A stretch of 64,000 bases of DNA, from assembly GCF_029081005.1 (NCBI RefSeq), contig NZ_JAJQTQ010000016.1, positions 1 through 64,000 of the forward strand. Direction: 5' to 3'. The translations under genes were made by a program, and so were the position numbers. This document shows positions 10,819 to 22,841 of this stretch, piece after piece. The notes under the pieces are model-generated. The model was given only the letters and a program-made list of their open reading frames with translations, did not search any database and was not told the DNA's origin. This stretch comes from Halomonas elongata (GTDB lineage: Bacteria; Pseudomonadota; Gammaproteobacteria; Pseudomonadales; Halomonadaceae). The stretch's first letter is position 1, and every line of letters begins with the position of its first letter.

Positions 10819-11688
10819 TCAGGACCAGAGGATCCAGGAGGCCAGGGACTCGCGGTTGGCGATCTCGATCTGCTGAGCGCGGGGGTTGGCCTCCGCATGG
10901 TGCGGGTTGATGCCCAGCTCGCGCAGGGCGTAGCGCGCCAGGGGGCCACGGCAGTGCAGCTCCAGCTCGCCATCTTGCATGCCGTAATCCAGTGCCAGCA
11001 GATCACGCTCGGCCTGAGGCAGGCGTCGGTCGGGAATCAGGCGTACCGCCACGCGGGTCTGCCAGCGCTCATCGTGCTCGACCCCATGCTCACCGAGCAT
11101 GGGGCCTGCATCCTCCGGCACGCCGCGAAAGCGGCTGAGCACGAAATCCCGATAATTGCGGTGTTTCTCGCAGTAGGCCCTGACATGCCAGCGCCCGGCG
11201 GCGAACACCAGGGTGTGCGGCACGAGAATACGATCCTCGCCCTCCGGACTCGAGAAGGACGCATACGTCACCTCCAGCCGGCGTCCCTCCCGGGCCGCCT
11301 TGACCACCTCACGCACTACATTCGGGGATATCGTCCGGCTCGGCATCGGCAACGACTCGGTGTTCGCCGCCCCCACGCCGAGCCCGGCGAAGGGCGACCC
11401 CAGGGTGTCGTGAGCATTCAGCAGGTGTAGATACTCATCGACCCGGCCCTGGGTGAAGCGAGGCAGGAAATCGGGGCTCGGCAGGAAACCGTGGCGCGTA
11501 TCGTCGTACCCCAGATTCTCCGGGGCCAGCTCCCGGTAGCGACGCAGCACCTTCTGCGCCTGCTGGCGTCCGATACCGAACGCCTCACCGATCTGACCGG
11601 CCACGACCCGGCCTTCCCACAGCGCCAGAATCTCGATCAGCCGATAGCGTGCCAGGGTGTCCCAGGCAAGGGGCGTGTGCGCACTCAT
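10819..11688 (-). CDS. WYL-domain transcriptional regulator of BrxR/CapW type
   Basis: A 289-residue regulator. The N-terminal winged helix-turn-helix (about residues 8-60, ARYRLIEILALWEGRVVAGQIGE) is followed by a WYL domain (about 125-200, with LEVTYASFSS, HTLVFAAGRWHVRAYCEKH and RDFVLSRFRG) and a C-terminal WCX-like extension. This architecture and length match BrxR/CapW proteins, which repress phage-defence operons and are thought to respond to a nucleic-acid-like ligand through WYL. It is divergent from the type I-F cas operon with 154 bp between starts and an inverted repeat in the gap. The start at 11688 has GGAGG 5 nt upstream, better than 11700. A direct role in cas control is inference. 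Confidence 0.85.
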   Translation of the reverse strand: MSAHTPLAWDTLARYRLIEILALWEGRVVAGQIGEAFGIGRQQAQKVLRRYRELAPENLGYDDTRHGFLPSPDFLPRFTQGRVDEYLHLLNAHDTLGSPFAGLGVGAANTESLPMPSRTISPNVVREVVKAAREGRRLEVTYASFSSPEGEDRILVPHTLVFAAGRWHVRAYCEKHRNYRDFVLSRFRGVPEDAGPMLGEHGVEHDERWQTRVAVRLIPDRRLPQAERDLLALDYGMQDGELELHCRGPLARYALRELGINPHHAEANPRAQQIEIANRESLASWILWS

Positions 11689-11714
11689 GACGGCCTCCAT
11701 CCTTGGTTGCCATG

Positions 11715-11755
11715 TTCAACCCGACGATCATGCCCCGAAGTGTAGCCGGGTTGAA
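11715..11755. promoter_or_regulatory. Long-spaced inverted repeat, candidate WYL-regulator operator
   Basis: TTCAACCCG (11715-11723) and CGGGTTGAA (11747-11755) are perfect inverted 9-mers separated by 23 bp; their centres are 32 bp apart, about three helical turns. The dyad lies between the WYL gene start and the cas1 start, where it could control both promoters. Confidence 0.55.
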
Positions 11756-11842
11756 GAGTATCGTGGATGGATGTCCATGGGTGGCGGGGATAGGGAGCGC
11801 GTGCTTGGATGGGGGAGACGACAGGGCAGTAAGGGCAACAGC

Positions 11843-12817
11843 ATGGATGATCTTTCTCCATCGGATCTCAAAACGATTCTGCACTCGAAGCGTGCAAACC
11901 TGTACTACCTCCAGCATTGTCGCGTGTTGGTGAATGGTGGCCGTGTCGAGTATGTGACCGACGAGGGCAAGGAGTCGCGTTACTGGAACATTCCCATTGC
12001 CAATACCACTTCATTATTACTGGGCACGGGAACCTCGATTACCCAGGCCGCGATGCGCGAGCTGGCCAAGGCAGGGGTGCTGGTCGGTTTCTGCGGAGGT
12101 GGCGGAACGCCACTTTTCGCAGCCAACGAAGTGGATGTCGATGTTGCCTGGTTAACACCGCAGAGCGAATATCGCCCGACTGAATATCTGCAGTACTGGG
12201 TGCGCTTCTGGTTTGACGACGAAAAGCGTCTAGAGGCCGCCCGCACCTTCCAGATGGCGCGGTTATCGCGTATCGAGACGCTATGGAAAAGTCGACCTCT
12301 CAAGGAAGCGGGCTTTGAAATATCCGCACAGCACCTGGGTGATGTACTGGCACAGCATAGAAGCGCGATTGGCAATGCCGCCGATACGGTCGAATTGCTG
12401 ACCCTCGAAGCGCGTTTGACCAAGACGCTCTTCAAAGTGGCGACGCAAGCGGTGGGTTACGGCGAATTCACGCGTGCCAAACGTGGCAGTGGAACCGACC
12501 CCGCCAATCGGTTTCTCGACCATGGCAATTACCTGGCCTATGGGTTAGCGGCAACCGCGACATGGGTATTGGGGATTCCCCACGGCTTGGCGGTGCTGCA
12601 TGGCAAGACCCGCCGGGGTGGTCTGGTCTTCGATGTCGCTGACCTGGTCAAGGATGCCATCATTCTCCCGCAAGCATTTTTGTCAGCCATGCGGGGCGAC
12701 GAGGAGCAAGAGTTCCGCCAGGCCTGTATCGAGCGGTTAACGCGTACCGAGTCTCTCGATTTCATGATCGATACGCTAAAAGCCGTGGCCCTCGACCTCG
12801 GAGGGCCGGACGCATGA
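11843..12817 (+). CDS. cas1: Type I-F CRISPR integrase Cas1
   Basis: Cas1 is the metal-dependent integrase that inserts new spacers next to the leader, acting in type I-F with the Cas2-3 fusion. The 324 residues match the family length. Recognisable segments are SKRANLYYLQHCRVLVNGG, NTTSLLLGTGTSITQAAM, VGFCGGGG, LLTLEARLTK (candidate catalytic Glu), FLDHGNYLAYG, and GIPHGLAVLHGKTRRGG with following Asp residues (candidate His/Asp ligands). The ATG at 11843 is chosen because longer in-frame starts run into the regulator's promoter. The stop overlaps the cas2-3 start by 4 nt. Codon use is more AT-rich than in flanking metabolic genes, as in the rest of the cas operon. Confidence 0.97.
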   Translation: MDDLSPSDLKTILHSKRANLYYLQHCRVLVNGGRVEYVTDEGKESRYWNIPIANTTSLLLGTGTSITQAAMRELAKAGVLVGFCGGGGTPLFAANEVDVDVAWLTPQSEYRPTEYLQYWVRFWFDDEKRLEAARTFQMARLSRIETLWKSRPLKEAGFEISAQHLGDVLAQHRSAIGNAADTVELLTLEARLTKTLFKVATQAVGYGEFTRAKRGSGTDPANRFLDHGNYLAYGLAATATWVLGIPHGLAVLHGKTRRGGLVFDVADLVKDAIILPQAFLSAMRGDEEQEFRQACIERLTRTESLDFMIDTLKAVALDLGGPDA

Positions 12818-16236: not shown

Positions 16237-17613
16237 ATGGCAATGACACAACAAGCAGCAGGGATACGTGAGGTCATCGATCGATTCATAAAGGAACGTT
16301 TCGATACCAAAGCGGAAAAATTAGCCCCCGATGATCCCAAGTACCAAGAACTAGTTGAACAGTTTCAGCGTGATACCTGGCTTGATGATGCCGCTCGGCG
16401 TGTCAGTCAGCTGCAAGTCGTGACCCATTCCCTAAAACCCATTCATCCGGATGCCAAGGGCTCTAACCTATATGCACCCCCTGAGTCTCTTGATAAGCAT
16501 TCCGCGGTGGGAAGTCATGTGTTGTCAATAGACTTCGACGGCGATGTCGTGGGCAATGCCGCGGCTCTCGATGTGTATAAGTTCCTGAAGCTCGAGTACG
16601 ACGGCAAATCATTGCTGGAGCGGGTGCTTGAGGACGACGCTGAGCTGGCGCGTGCCTTGAGCGATACTCCTGAGCAGTCACAAGTCTGGATGCAGTCCTT
16701 TTTTGCCATTACCGAGCCTCGCGGTGAGCATGCTTCTCATACCCGTGCCAAGCAGGTGTATTGGCTGACAGGCGAAGATGCGGTCGATAATGACGACTTC
16801 CACCTACTGGCGCCGCTCTATGCGACCTCGCTGGCGCACCGAGTCTTTCAGACAATCAATCATGATCGTTTCAGCGATATGGCCAAGGAGGCTCGCAAGG
16901 CAAAGCGCGAGGGTCGTGCTGGCGAACAAGAAGTTCATGATTACCCCAATATAGCCGCACAAAAAATGGGCGGTACAAAGCCACAGAATATTTCGCAATT
17001 GAATAGCGAGAGGGGCGGAAATAATTACTTGCTGGCCTCGTTGCCACCCCGCTGGAATGTACGCGATATCCGTCCGCCGCTAAAGGTGGATTCGGTACTA
17101 GACGAACCCGGGATATTTGGTCGGCGAAAGGAAGTGAGGTCGTTGGTCGGTGACTTGAAGCACTTTCTTGAAGCCGCCCCCAAAACGGATATGCATACCC
17201 GTGATCTGCGCGATGACTACACTGCGATGATCCTGGATGAGCTCGCGTTGTTTACGATGCAGATGCATGAACTCTCGCCGGGCTGGAGTGCTGACGAAAA
17301 CTGTCGCCTGTCGATGGAAGAAGCTTTCTGGCTTGACCCTGGCCGCGCACAGGATGATAGCGACTTTCGTGAAGCGCGTAATAATACCGACTGGCCTGGC
17401 GAGGTTCGGCGACGATTCGCCAATTGGCTCAATAAGGCGCTTGGCGGAAAGTTGCCCTTGGGCGATGTGGAATTTCGCCACTGGCACAAGGAACTTTCCC
17501 GGGATGCCAATCAGCAACACTTGTTGGATAGCGACCGCCGTTGGATGGAAGCCTTGATGGACGACCTGGAAAGTATCGACGATTGGCAGGAGGAAGGTGA
17601 TGAGCAGGGTTAA
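16237..17613 (+). CDS. csy1: Csy1 (Cas8f), large subunit of the type I-F surveillance complex
   Basis: Csy1/Cas8f of 458 residues. In the Csy complex it pairs with Cas5f at the crRNA 5' end and recognises the CC PAM. The sequence starts MAMTQQAAGIREVIDRFIKERF and contains the family segments TWLDDAARRVSQLQVVTHSLK, SHVLSIDFDGDVVGNAAAL, and the GGTKPQNISQLNSERGG block. AAGGTGAT lies just before the ATG. It is followed by csy2 with a 14-nt overlap. The length agrees with Pseudomonas Csy1 (about 434 residues). Individual PAM-contact residues were not assigned. Confidence 0.95.
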   Translation: MAMTQQAAGIREVIDRFIKERFDTKAEKLAPDDPKYQELVEQFQRDTWLDDAARRVSQLQVVTHSLKPIHPDAKGSNLYAPPESLDKHSAVGSHVLSIDFDGDVVGNAAALDVYKFLKLEYDGKSLLERVLEDDAELARALSDTPEQSQVWMQSFFAITEPRGEHASHTRAKQVYWLTGEDAVDNDDFHLLAPLYATSLAHRVFQTINHDRFSDMAKEARKAKREGRAGEQEVHDYPNIAAQKMGGTKPQNISQLNSERGGNNYLLASLPPRWNVRDIRPPLKVDSVLDEPGIFGRRKEVRSLVGDLKHFLEAAPKTDMHTRDLRDDYTAMILDELALFTMQMHELSPGWSADENCRLSMEEAFWLDPGRAQDDSDFREARNNTDWPGEVRRRFANWLNKALGGKLPLGDVEFRHWHKELSRDANQQHLLDSDRRWMEALMDDLESIDDWQEEGDEQG

Positions 17614-18576: not shown

Positions 18577-19608
18577 ATGGCTAAGAAAGACGATGCACTC
18601 AAGACCGCTTCCGTTCTCGCTTTCGAGCGCAAGCTCGACCCTTCCGATGCGCTGTTATACGCCGGGCAGTGGTCACAGCGCGACGCGCTGGACGACTGGC
18701 AGCCGGTCACGGTTCGTGAAAAGTCGGTACGCGGTACGATCTCCAATCGCCTCAAGGCCAAGGAGCAGGATCCGGCAAAAGTTGATGCAAAAATCGAGGA
18801 TCCCAACCTCCAGACCGTCGATGTCGCTACCTTGCCCCATAAGGCCGACACCTTGATGGCACGTTTTACGTTGCGGGTGCTTGGTGGCGCCGGTACACCA
18901 TCGGCGTGCAATAACGCCGACTATCAAGCCAAGCTGCAACAGGCCGTTGCGGAGTATGTGCAAACGCAAGGGTTTAACGAGTTGGCACGCCGTTATGCCC
19001 ACAATCTGGCGAATGGCCGTTTCCTGTGGCGTAACCGTGTCGGTGCCGAGCAAGTCGAAGTACGCATTCGACGCATGGAGTACGGCAAGGTTGCGAAAGA
19101 GTGGACATTCGATGCACTGAGTCTATCGCTGCGAGGTTTTGATGATGACGAGCAGACCCAGGCACTTGCGCAAGATATTGCCGATGCCTTGGCGGGTGAA
19201 CGTCATCTGATTCTTGAGGTTATCGCGTTTGCTCATGTCGGCATGGGACAAGAAGTCTTTCCGTCACAAGAACTGATTCTCGAGCGCGGGCGCGGTGACA
19301 AGAGCAAGACACTTTATCAAGTGGATGGCGTGGCAGGAATCCACTCCCAAAAGCTGGGCAATGCCATTCGCACCATCGATACCTGGTACCCAACGCCGGA
19401 AGATGGCAGCGACCTCGGCCCCATCGCCGTCGAACCTTATGGCTCCGTGACGACTCAAGGCACGGCCTACCGTCAGCCCAAGCAGAAGGTGGACTTTTAC
19501 TCGCTTTTGGACAACTGGATGATCAAGGATCAAGTGCCGAGTACGGAACAGCAACACTTCGTGATGGCGACCTTGATCCGCGGTGGTGTCTTCGGCGAAG
19601 CGGGGTAA
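18577..19608 (+). CDS. csy3: Csy3 (Cas7f), backbone subunit
   Basis: Cas7f of 343 residues (Pseudomonas Csy3 has 342). Six copies form the helical backbone over the crRNA spacer. Diagnostic segments are [19 protein letters not shown] near the start, [21 protein letters not shown], the [10 protein letters not shown] region and the C-terminal [26 protein letters not shown] lies about 6 nt before the ATG. It sits 17 bp after csy2 and 3 bp before cas6f. Confidence 0.97.
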
Positions 19609-19611
19609 GCC

Positions 19612-20181
19612 ATGGACCATTATCTCGATATTCGGCTACGCCCTGACCCGGAGTTTCCCGCGGCGATGCTGATGAATGCACTCTACAGCAAGCTCCACCG
19701 GGCGCTTTACGATCTGCAGGCCGATGACATCGGCGTTAGCCTGCCCGATCACAAGACCGGCGTGCGAGCACGCACACCGGGGGGCCGGTTACGACTGCAC
19801 GCTCAGCGGAGTCGGCTCGAAGAACTCATGGCTCTCTCCTGGTTGGCGGGTATGCGTGACCACGTAGAGTTGGCGGACATTGCGCCGGTTCCGGCGGAAG
19901 CGCGCCACTGTCGTGTGTTACGACGTCAGTTCAATACAGGCGGCCTCAGCCGGGTTAAGCGTTACGCGCGCCGCCACGACATCAGCGAAGAAGAGGCGCG
20001 CCAATGCATGTCGGCACCCGCTGAACGCAAGATCTCACTGCCCTTCGTGCAGGTGAACAGCCGCTCAAGCGGGCAACGTTTTGCGTTGTTTATTGAGCAC
20101 GGGCAGCCACAGGAGATACCGGTGGCAGGGCGCTTCAATCATTACGGACTGAGCCGTGAAGCGACCGTGCCCTGGTTTTGA
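19612..20181 (+). CDS. cas6f: Cas6f (Csy4) crRNA endoribonuclease
   Basis: A 189-residue CRISPR RNA-processing endonuclease. It cleaves each repeat 3' of the stem-loop and stays bound to the hairpin. The catalytic His of Pseudomonas Csy4 (His29) is conserved in place (YSKLHRALYD, His29), and the Ser-rich active-site loop appears as VNSRSSGQRFALF (Ser150-Ser153). The arginine-rich groove helix is RQFNTGGLSRVKRYARRHD (about residues 105-123). It is the last gene of the operon, followed by a terminator-like hairpin and the CRISPR leader in the same orientation. Confidence 0.96.
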   Translation: MDHYLDIRLRPDPEFPAAMLMNALYSKLHRALYDLQADDIGVSLPDHKTGVRARTPGGRLRLHAQRSRLEELMALSWLAGMRDHVELADIAPVPAEARHCRVLRRQFNTGGLSRVKRYARRHDISEEEARQCMSAPAERKISLPFVQVNSRSSGQRFALFIEHGQPQEIPVAGRFNHYGLSREATVPWF

Positions 20182-20215
20182 CCCTTTTCCGAGAGGCCTC
20201 TGTTGAGGCCTAATA

Positions 20216-20228
20216 AATCAATAAGTTA
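20216..20228 (+). promoter_or_regulatory. Distal IHF-consensus site in the leader
   Basis: AATCAATAAGTTA matches WATCAANNNNTTR at every defined position. It ends 83 bp before the first repeat. IHF-dependent bending of the leader is known for type I-F adaptation. Confidence 0.65.
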
Positions 20229-20265
20229 GCGCCACTTCCTGGAAAAGGGTGTGGCGCTTTCTTTT
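20228..20265 (+). terminator. Hairpin terminator after cas6f
   Basis: AGCGCCAC...GTGGCGCT (8-bp stem, 15-nt loop) is followed by TTCTTTT. It would end cas mRNAs before the array, implying that the array uses its own promoter. Confidence 0.7.
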
Positions 20266-20277
20266 CAGGAATGCTCT

Positions 20278-20306
20278 TTAACAATCAGTTGGTTAGCTGT
20301 GATAAG
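20278..20306 (+). promoter_or_regulatory. Candidate array promoter
   Basis: TTAACA (20278-20283) and GATAAG (20301-20306) are separated by exactly 17 bp. Transcription would start near 20313, at the first repeat. Confidence 0.55.
20283..20295 (+). promoter_or_regulatory. Proximal IHF-consensus site in the leader
   Basis: AATCAGTTGGTTA matches WATCARNNNNTTR fully. It ends 16 bp before the first repeat and lies inside the promoter spacer, so bound IHF might also affect array transcription. Confidence 0.6.
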
Positions 20307-20311
20307 CTCTA

Positions 20312-22808
20312 GTTCGCTGCCGCCCAGGCAGCTCAGAAAACCGTCGAGGAGAAGACCGGCGACGAGAACATGTTCGCTGCCGCCCAGGCAGCTCAGAAAA
20401 ATGAGCTGTACGAGGTGGTGAACAACGCTCAGTTCGCTGCCGCCCAGGCAGCTCAGAAATTGTTGCGCGGTATGCCGGTATCAGCCGCCAGGTTCGCTGC
20501 CGCCCAGGCAGCTCAGAAAAGCCGGCGCTGCTCGAACCATCGGTCGATGTCGTTCGCTGCCGCCCAGGCAGCTCAGAAAGAGCCCGCACAGCCCACTGAG
20601 CCGTCCAATCCGTTCGCTGCCGCCCAGGCAGCTCAGAAATGAGTTCGTGCGCCATCAGCTTCATTACGCGGGTTCGCTGCCGCCCAGGCAGCTCAGAAAA
20701 TTGGCGACCGGATGACATTGCTCTGTGGCGTGTTCGCTGCCGCCCAGGCAGCTCAGAAAAGAAAGAACGCCCACTTCTCCAATTTGAGAAGGTTCGCTGC
20801 CGCCCAGGCAGCTCAGAAAAACCTGGAGGACGCCAACCTGCGGGGCGCCAAGTTCGCTGCCGCCCAGGCAGCTCAGAAAATTCCGTACGCACCTCCAGCT
20901 CTTTGGCGATCGTTCGCTGCCGCCCAGGCAGCTCAGAAAAACAGTCATGGCGCGGCCCACGGCCCCCCGACGTTCGCTGCCGCCCAGGCAGCTCAGAAAA
21001 CTCGCCGGTGACGCGCTGCATGAGGCGTTTGGTTCGCTGCCGCCCAGGCAGCTCAGAAAAAGTAATGGGCCGCGGCGGCGTCGCGGTCGGGGTTCGCTGC
21101 CGCCCAGGCAGCTCAGAAAACCACGGCCTCTGCCTGTTCTTCGGTCGGCATGTTCGCTGCCGCCCAGGCAGCTCAGAAATCGGCGGTGTTGTAGCGGTTG
21201 GTGTCGAACGCGTTCGCTGCCGCCCAGGCAGCTCAGAAAACGCTCATCAGTCGCTGAGTGACTTGCTCAAGGTTCGCTGCCGCCCAGGCAGCTCAGAAAA
21301 GCATACTATTGAGACGCTTGAGGAGCTGGAAGTTCGCTGCCGCCCAGGCAGCTCAGAAATCGGCCATGGTGCGCGTGCTCTGATACTTCTTCGTTCGCTG
21401 CCGCCCAGGCAGCTCAGAAAATTCGCTATCGCGAGAGCGGTACGTCCCAGTGGTTCGCTGCCGCCCAGGCAGCTCAGAAAATAAGCCTCGGCCATGGTGC
21501 GCGTGCTCTGATGTTCGCTGCCGCCCAGGCAGCTCAGAAATCACGCTGTCGCCCGGCTCGGCACTGCTGACGGTTCGCTGCCGCCCAGGCAGCTCAGAAA
21601 ATCGGGAATCTCGGCGGTGTAGAGGTCAGAGCGTTCGCTGCCGCCCAGGCAGCTCAGAAATCGAACGAGCCGAAAACGCCACGACCGCTGTAGTTCGCTG
21701 CCGCCCAGGCAGCTCAGAAAGTGAGCGCCCGGGCAAGAGGACGAATCAATGAGTTCGCTGCCGCCCAGGCAGCTCAGAAAGGACGACAGCGCGATCGGCA
21801 CCGGTGCCAACTGTTCGCTGCCGCCCAGGCAGCTCAGAAATCGACGATCACGTCCTGGGGCATCGGCGGCGCGTTCGCTGCCGCCCAGGCAGCTCAGAAA
21901 AATCACGTCACTATCCACGCCAGCCGTTTCGCGTTCGCTGCCGCCCAGGCAGCTCAGAAAGATGGCGAGTGGAGCTCTATCGAGGGCGGCGAGTTCGCTG
22001 CCGCCCAGGCAGCTCAGAAAAGTCGACAACGGGGGGTTCGGGTTGCCGATTAGTTCGCTGCCGCCCAGGCAGCTCAGAAAGGCTGAATGGCTGCGCCTGC
22101 CCGAAACCGAGAGTTCGCTGCCGCCCAGGCAGCTCAGAAAGGTGGAGAGTCCACAGGCTCTACCAATATCGAGTTCGCTGCCGCCCAGGCAGCTCAGAAA
22201 AGCCGTAACGCCACCAGCAGCAGGACCCCCCAGTTCGCTGCCGCCCAGGCAGCTCAGAAAAGCGTCGGTGATACCGTTGACCGGATCACCAGGTTCGCTG
22301 CCGCCCAGGCAGCTCAGAAAAGGTGCTGCCGGAAGGTGCGAATACGCCGCACGTTCGCTGCCGCCCAGGCAGCTCAGAAAATCGGTGGCCACGATGCCCC
22401 AGGGCACACCACGTTCGCTGCTGCCCAGGCAGCTCAGAAAAGAAATGTTGCTGATGACGGCGCTCGGGTCGTGTTCGCTGCCGCCCAGGCAGCTAAGAAA
22501 TACAACCGGAGTGACTGCAAATACCTGAGCGAGTGAGCGAGTTCGCTGCCGCCCAGGCAGCTCAGAAATGGCGGATAGCGTTATGGTGCGTGGCATCGTT
22601 GTTCGCTGCCGCCCAGGCAGCTCAGAAATCGAGGCCGAGATCCTCTCCAACAACAGTTGGGTTCGCTGCCGCCCAGGCAGCTAAGAAAAGGAGCGGCTGG
22701 CCCAGAGGGATAGCATCGGCGTTTGCTGCCGCCCAGGCAGTTCAGAAACACAGCGTTGACAGGCATGCTTCGCGACGCTCGTTCGCTTCCGCTCAGGCAA
22801 TTCAAGAA
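20312..22808 (+). CRISPR. Type I-F CRISPR array, 42 repeats and 41 spacers
   Basis: The 28-bp repeats begin GTTCGCTGCC, contain a 5-bp stem CTGCC/GGCAG with loop GCCCA, and end CTCAGAAA, the future 8-nt crRNA handle. Repeats 1-18 start at 20312 and recur every 60 bp; repeats 19-37 start at 21393 and recur every 60 bp; repeats 38-42 start at 22541, 22601, 22661, 22721 and 22781. Spacers are 32 nt except spacer 18 (33 nt, 21360-21392) and spacer 37 (40 nt, 22501-22540). Repeats 36, 37, 40, 41 and 42 carry substitutions, worst in 42, marking the old trailer end. Spacers 18 and 20 share 25 nt. Orientation agrees with the cas operon. Confidence 0.99.
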
Positions 22809-22835
22809 AAGAAAAAGCCGCCTCGCGGGCGGCTT
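22803..22835 (-). terminator. Terminator for glpQ inside the CRISPR trailer
   Basis: On the minus strand the stem AAGCCGCC...GGCGGCTT is followed by TTTTTCTTTTC, giving a good intrinsic terminator 27 bp after the glpQ stop. On the plus strand there is no T-run. Confidence 0.75.
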
Positions 22836-22841
22836 GGAGGG

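Follow-up and report, generated by a model that had tools for sequence, protein, structure and literature searches.

Spacers 18 and 20 of a CRISPR array carried by Halomonas elongata overlap in sequence, which raises the question of how one array came to hold two pieces of what looks like the same target, and from which invader they were taken. We addressed this question in the stretch of 64,000 nucleotides that contains the array (the window) and in the rest of the same genome, a draft of 170 contigs.

The type I-F locus and its array

The window contains the following CRISPR-Cas features:

11657..12817, plus strand: Cas1f, profile match of 513 bits
12814..16158, plus strand: Cas2-3f fusion, 1339 bits, covering positions 1-1109 of the 1110 of the profile
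16237..17613, plus strand: Cas8f (Csy1), profile match; the protein that AcrIF11 modifies, according to PMC12421852
17597..18559, plus strand: Cas5f (Csy2), profile match
18577..19608, plus strand: Cas7f (Csy3), profile match
19612..20181, plus strand: Cas6f (Csy4), profile match
20182..20311, plus strand: probable leader, placed here by its position between cas6f and the first repeat and by the decay of the distal repeats
20312..22808, plus strand: CRISPR array of 28-nt repeats (GTTCGCTGCCGCCCAGGCAGCTCAGAAA) with 41 spacers

All six Cas proteins of type I-F1 are present with near full-length profile matches, and the array lies directly downstream of the operon. Judged by the cas set, the 28-nt repeats, the spacers of about 32 nt and the 5'-CC PAM, the locus is an apparently complete type I-F1 CRISPR-Cas system. 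Spacers are numbered from the cas6f-proximal end. Since the repeats decay toward the distal end (22.8 kb), from 22413 on, the leader should lie at the cas6f side and a higher spacer number should mean an older spacer; the earlier view that spacer 20, being farther from the leader, is the older of the pair is upheld by this placement.

Spacers are uniform in length (39 of 41 have 32 nt), spacer 18 being the sole 33-mer and one other having 40 nt, and 34 of 41 start with A or T. The 40-nt spacer is number 37 (window 22501-22540), 8 nt above nearly all others. A candidate 'spacer 42' (22809-22840) was left out of all counts, as it lies behind the decayed repeat 42 and resembles a terminator hairpin; its phage matches are weak (24-26 of 32 letters) and adjoin GC, not CC.

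Overlap of spacers 18 and 20

21360..21392, plus strand: spacer 18, 33 nt, whose first 25 nt equal the last 25 nt of spacer 20
21481..21512, plus strand: spacer 20, 32 nt, whose first 7 nt close with CC, the expected PAM of protospacer 18

The original prediction was that these two spacers have 25 nt in common at an offset of 7 nt, and a letter-by-letter comparison of the array confirms this. The common word is exact (21360-21384 = 21488-21512), both spacers read on the same strand, and the merged target spans 40 nt. The ends that are not shared are ATAAGCC, in spacer 20 only, and ACTTCTTC, in spacer 18 only. As ATAAGCC precedes the 25-nt word in spacer 20, CC stands immediately 5' of protospacer 18, just as had been proposed. 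This CC is what protospacer 18 should have; at any given place, CC is met by chance in about 8% of cases. A PAM for spacer 20 itself is presumed.

When all pairs of the 42 inter-repeat stretches were compared on both strands, the next longest word common to any two was 12 nt on the opposite strand and 10 nt on the same strand. From base composition, about 1.7e-10 pairs with a common 25-mer would be expected, and chance cannot explain the overlap. Both the exact 25-nt word and this expectation support the earlier claim that spacers 18 and 20 derive from one protospacer region, as overlapping spacers whose free ends presumably continue a single target. Overlapping spacer pairs are a known kind of event, as are all other parts of this case, and we claim no novelty for it.

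A pair of this sort could in theory stem from a single acquisition, with spacer 18 or 20 derived from the other by recombination or slippage within the array; the repeats are identical there and the two spacers lie one unit apart, which makes a rearrangement feasible. However, each spacer has letters that are missing in the other (ATAAGCC in 20, ACTTCTTC in 18), and the seven extra letters of spacer 20 end in the exact PAM for 18. Because a rearrangement cannot supply flanking invader DNA, these unique ends lead us to reject a single acquisition as having next to no probability.

Two acquisitions could also have been separated by escape of the invader. A mutation in the PAM or the first five seed letters of protospacer 20 would have let a phage evade that spacer, and spacer 18 would then have been captured 7 nt further in. 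The shared 25 letters are identical, which confines any such mutation to the PAM or to letters 1-5 of protospacer 20; the CC belonging to spacer 18 occupies letters 6-7. The sequence is compatible with this course of events. Resampling of an unmutated target fits equally well, however, and we consider re-immunisation after escape improbable; it is a special form of the explanation favoured below, and the odds of the two overlap.

Matches of the other spacers

The array was compared with its own genome, 90 genomes of the genus, 33 related virus records and a phage collection, and the DNA fetched in this way was then scanned letter by letter. The PAM tally covers the fetched DNA only, with a threshold of at least 27 of 32 letters. 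At this threshold 17 of the 41 spacers have a match, 12 of them in a prophage resident in the same genome and five elsewhere (7, 14, 34, 35 and 39). CC stands beside the match in 16 of the 17, the exception being spacer 34 (CG), compared with a CC frequency of 8% in the resident prophage; shuffled spacers gave 0 of 820 matches above 25 letters. Together with the complete I-F cas set, the tally bears out the identification of CC as the I-F PAM. Among weaker matches of 25-26 letters, CC is found at spacers 9 and 36 and is lacking at spacers 1, 11 (in genome G075), 13 and the 40-nt spacer 37.

The five spacers with matches outside the resident prophage are:

20700..20731, plus strand: spacer 7, 32/32 in a related prophage of genome G015, CC PAM; no match of at least 24/32 in the resident prophage
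21120..21151, plus strand: spacer 14, 28/32 near a related prophage of genome G025, CC PAM
22321..22352, plus strand: spacer 34, 29/32 in the minor tail protein L gene of Rhizobium phage RHEph10, with CG, not CC
22381..22412, plus strand: spacer 35, 30/32 in the tail tip assembly gene of Halomonas phage vB_HmeY_H4907 (OQ832096.1), CC PAM
22629..22660, plus strand: spacer 39, 32/32 in contig 4 of genome G015, CC PAM

RHEph10 infects another, distant host, and its sequence may be merely related to the true target of spacer 34. The array is aimed largely at a single phage family but not throughout, as the match of spacer 35 to phage H4907 indicates; this match also points to a Halomonas-like host.

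The resident prophage

The resident prophage is lambda-like, about 50 kb long and split over two contigs, C90 and C100. The right end of C90 is a phage early region with integrase, methyltransferase, helicase, recombination and pentapeptide-repeat genes, along with genes for a CI-like repressor, a CII-like activator, an O-like replication protein and a RusA-like protein. C100 starts with an anti-CRISPR and helix-turn-helix (HTH) gene pair, followed by lysis and packaging genes, head genes, the tail tape measure gene, tail fibre gene J and a further tail fibre gene. C90 and C100 share 45 nt of tandem repeat at their ends; this overlap and the complementary early and late modules are our reasons for reading the two contigs as one prophage of about 50 kb, and the repeat probably broke the assembly between them. 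By eye, the repeat unit is about 39 nt; it lies at the end of C90 (51 kb) and the start of C100, with the early region on one side and the acr-HTH genes on the other. A HigB/HigA-type toxin-antitoxin pair is located between the prophage tail genes (L024:13805-14373).

Twelve spacers match this prophage:

20520..20551, plus strand: spacer 4, 32/32 in the early region (C90:39591, plus strand), CC PAM
20580..20611, plus strand: spacer 5, 32/32 in the early region (C90:36855, minus strand), CC PAM
20640..20671, plus strand: spacer 6, 32/32 in the early region (C90:47483, minus strand), CC PAM
20820..20851, plus strand: spacer 9, 32/32 in the pentapeptide-repeat gene (C90:40501, minus strand), CC PAM
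20940..20971, plus strand: spacer 11, 29/32 just upstream of J (C100:19687, minus strand), CC PAM
21180..21211, plus strand: spacer 15, 32/32 in the early region (C90:39770, plus strand), CC PAM
21300..21331, plus strand: spacer 17, 32/32 just behind J (C100:26771, plus strand), CC PAM
21421..21452, plus strand: spacer 19, 32/32 in tail gene J (C100:20965, plus strand), CC PAM
21541..21572, plus strand: spacer 21, 32/32 in gene J (C100:23525, plus strand), CC PAM
21601..21632, plus strand: spacer 22, 32/32 in gene J (C100:20054, minus strand), CC PAM; also 32/32 in the G025 prophage
22261..22292, plus strand: spacer 33, 29/32 in gene J (C100:23185, plus strand), CC PAM
22441..22472, plus strand: spacer 36, 27/32 in gene J (C100:22922, minus strand), CC PAM; the oldest match to the prophage

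Nine of these matches are perfect and three have 3 to 5 mismatches, and CC is present at 12 of 12. The imperfect ones belong to spacers 36 and 33, the two oldest that match, and to spacer 11. Gene J contains 5 of the 12 (binomial P = 0.009). Further 32/32 matches of spacer 5, again beside CC, lie in a relative from IMG/VR and in contig 7 of G015. Besides its perfect match, spacer 9 has 12 near copies within or next to the pentapeptide-repeat gene (90-100% identity over 26-32 aligned letters); this gene occupies C90:40053-41099 (L027:53-1099, minus strand), and one spacer-9 crRNA could have many targets there. Should the assembly be a MAG or stem from a mixed culture, array and prophage could in principle belong to separate cells.

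Read from old to young, the part of the array around the overlapping pair runs 22 (J), 21 (J), 20, 19 (J), 18 and 17 (just behind J). Spacers 17, 19, 21 and 22 thus interleave with 18 and 20, and all four map to one end of the prophage. Repeated sampling, which the original prediction supposed for one invader, is supported for one phage family by the 12 of 41 spacers that match a single prophage, including these four.

Search for the 40-nt target

The merged 40-mer has no match in the resident prophage (best 23 of 40 letters) or in the fetched prophage relatives (best 26 of 40). Its 25-nt core, at up to three mismatches, does not recur elsewhere in the own genome and is absent from 90 genomes of the genus and 390 genomes at order level. 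No record of the phage collection covers 80% of the 40-mer; one record of the plasmid collection does so, at 80% identity and E = 6, which we judge unconvincing. In IMG/VR, a 22-mer seed gave 0 matches and two 17-mer seeds gave 0 and 3, the latter with 19, 25 and 28 of 40 letters identical when the seed is counted, which we judge to be chance; the central 16-mer gave 40 matches, in which at most 10 of the 24 letters flanking the seed agreed.

Five frames of the 40-mer are free of stops, and only the reverse-strand frame KKYQSTRTMAEAY has codons of GC-rich type (G or C at 10 of 13 third positions). This codon composition makes KKYQSTRTMAEAY the most likely coding frame, to which the 40-mer would be antisense. 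Degenerate patterns derived from this peptide were found in 0 of 275 family genomes, and the long pattern had 0 matches in IMG/VR; short patterns gave 6 and 6 matches that look like chance. No convincing relative of the peptide was seen in C100 or in the part of C90 examined. The J protein as an IMG/VR query confirmed no relatives, with the major head protein 33 were confirmed, and the 40-mer is absent from the parts of these 33 that were examined. A blastn search of L025:1-8000 against the phage collection returned nothing at E 1e-5.

As the 40-mer is absent from the resident prophage itself, spacers 18 and 20 probably come from a relative of it. Spacers 7 and 14 match DNA at related prophages (G015 and G025) and not the resident one, so targets in variants of this prophage family are to be expected. 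We infer that 18 and 20 were taken from the phage family of the resident prophage.

Order and geometry of acquisition

The type I-F system of Pectobacterium atrosepticum provides the closest comparison. According to PMC5059440, Cas1:Cas2-3 is brought to the displaced strand by priming as well as by interference, and new protospacers are located 5' on it; spacers of odd length are mostly found at canonical PAMs, and spacers starting with A or T are overrepresented. PMC4117759 is a further reference for type I-F adaptation in this species. Compared with the system of PMC5059440, the present locus has the same Cas1, Cas2-3 and Csy proteins, mostly 32-nt spacers, the same 5' CC PAM (GG on the other strand), the excess of A/T starts, a spacer of odd length (18) beside a canonical PAM, and apparent clustering near earlier targets. 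It differs in being a natural array without an experimental time course, in which the pair is known from the spacers alone.

In a post hoc test on the 12 mapped prophage spacers, 8 of the 11 later ones have an older partner on the opposite strand, on the PAM side, within 4 kb. Random strands give a mean of 3.9 (P = 0.014) and shuffled order a mean of 6.6 (P = 0.13). The count is likewise 8 of 11 within 7 kb (P = 0.023 for random strands, 0.22 for shuffled order) and falls to 3 of 11 within 1 kb, which is not significant (P = 0.25 and 0.66, respectively). Steps that fit the geometry include 36 to 33 (263 nt), 36 to 21 (603 nt) and 22 to 19 (911 nt). Along the array, the spacers of the early region and those of the J region fall into 4 runs (P = 0.07). 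Positions and strands of the prophage spacers thus fit published I-F targeted acquisition only moderately.

The step from 20 to 18 departs from the published geometry. It had been suggested that the pair reflects priming close to the original site or targeting of a PAM-rich hotspot. Direct priming of 18 by 20 is excluded, because both lie on the same strand and the published model needs the other, displaced one; two captures at a PAM-rich site fit better, which favours the second half of that suggestion. When CC sites were drawn at random from a 50-kb target, a same-strand pair this close arose in 2 to 5% of simulations with 14 to 20 spacers and in 20% with 41. Such a pair would be slightly uncommon if targets did not cluster, and is nothing remarkable if they do.

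These frequencies also bear on whether an unrelated element, another phage or a plasmid, was sampled twice at a hot spot of naive acquisition, its interleaving with prophage spacers being coincidental. The 40-mer is in none of the fetched prophage relatives, the array holds a spacer (35) against at least one further phage, and a pair this close is no rarity at the 20% simulated for 41 spacers. Yet that figure presupposes a single 50-kb source for all 41 spacers, and with 14 to 20 spacers it drops to 2 to 5%; moreover, the other four spacers in the stretch from 17 to 22 all fall at one end of a single phage. We therefore regard an unrelated source as rather unlikely, if the most serious of the competing explanations.

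What we consider probable, as a whole, is that overlapping protospacers were captured twice from one invader lineage, a relative of the resident prophage. The ordinary type I-F adaptation machinery would have taken protospacers 7 nt apart on the same strand, first spacer 20, then 19, then 18. Their source would most likely be a relative of the resident lambda-like prophage, sampled at a time when the older spacers 36, 33, 22 and 21 already steered acquisition to this phage. The PAM-rich site was likely hit on two separate occasions while older spacers were targeting the phage, and acquisition would then have been primed or targeted, not naive.

An AcrIF11-family gene in the prophage

The prophage carries an AcrIF11-family gene of 152 aa at C100:371-829 (L024:371-829), minus strand, which adjoins the C90/C100 junction. 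Its product scores 186.1 bits against the family model NF052490.1 (cut-off 50), 191 bits against PDB entry 8dwq and 39 bits against 6kyf (named AcrF11), and has no Pfam match. A gene for a 68-aa HTH-like (Aca-like) protein (L024:168-374, minus strand) overlaps the end of the acr gene; the protein has a weak match to a PHROG regulator (20.6 bits) and none in Pfam or NCBIfam. A perfect inverted repeat, GATAACT-g-AGTTATC, was read by eye upstream of acr. The pair recurs in the same order in contig 29 of G015, where the Acr is 94% identical, and this Acr is present in 2 of the 90 genus genomes, the own one included.

AcrIF11 is reported to protect DMS3m lysogens from I-F self-targeting and to resist targeting by multiple spacers (PMC12421852). 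By analogy, this lysogen most likely tolerates nine perfect, PAM-correct self-matches through the AcrIF11-family protein of its prophage, a predicted ADP-ribosyltransferase that would act on Cas8f and inhibit interference. As in the lysogens of that paper, a prophage with PAM-matched I-F targets is combined with an AcrIF11-family protein. In contrast to them, host and phage are different, nine spacers match perfectly and the role of the Acr is a prediction from sequence.

Taken alone, the overlapping pair is a routine record of one invader sampled repeatedly. In its setting it belongs to a clear natural case, in which an apparently complete I-F system, 12 ordered spacers against a resident prophage, CC at 12 of 12 and an AcrIF11-family gene occur together, and which offers a natural test bed for the interplay of anti-CRISPR phage, targeted spacer acquisition and lysogeny. 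One might go further and imagine a long fight with a single lineage of anti-CRISPR phages: AcrIF11 would inhibit the system only in part, and targeted acquisition would keep resampling the phage genome, the same 40 nt twice, until a lysogen arose whose nine perfect, PAM-correct self-spacers are held by a single enzyme. We offer this history as speculation and think it unlikely.

Repeat copies in other genomes

Lone copies of the I-F repeat occur in three other genomes, at L144:2797-2824 (G041; 28/28 letters), at L145:2497-2524 (G039; 27/28) and on the minus strand of L146 (G006; 26/28). No second copy of at least 21/28 lies beside any of them in the 5 kb fetched. They are possibly solitary repeat units of the RNA anti-CRISPR kind, as described in PMC10651486, or remnants of arrays. 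The L144 copy sits within a predicted ORF. On the minus strand of L149 (contig 1 of G075) there is a mini-array of two repeats (24/28 and 26/28) with one spacer between them.
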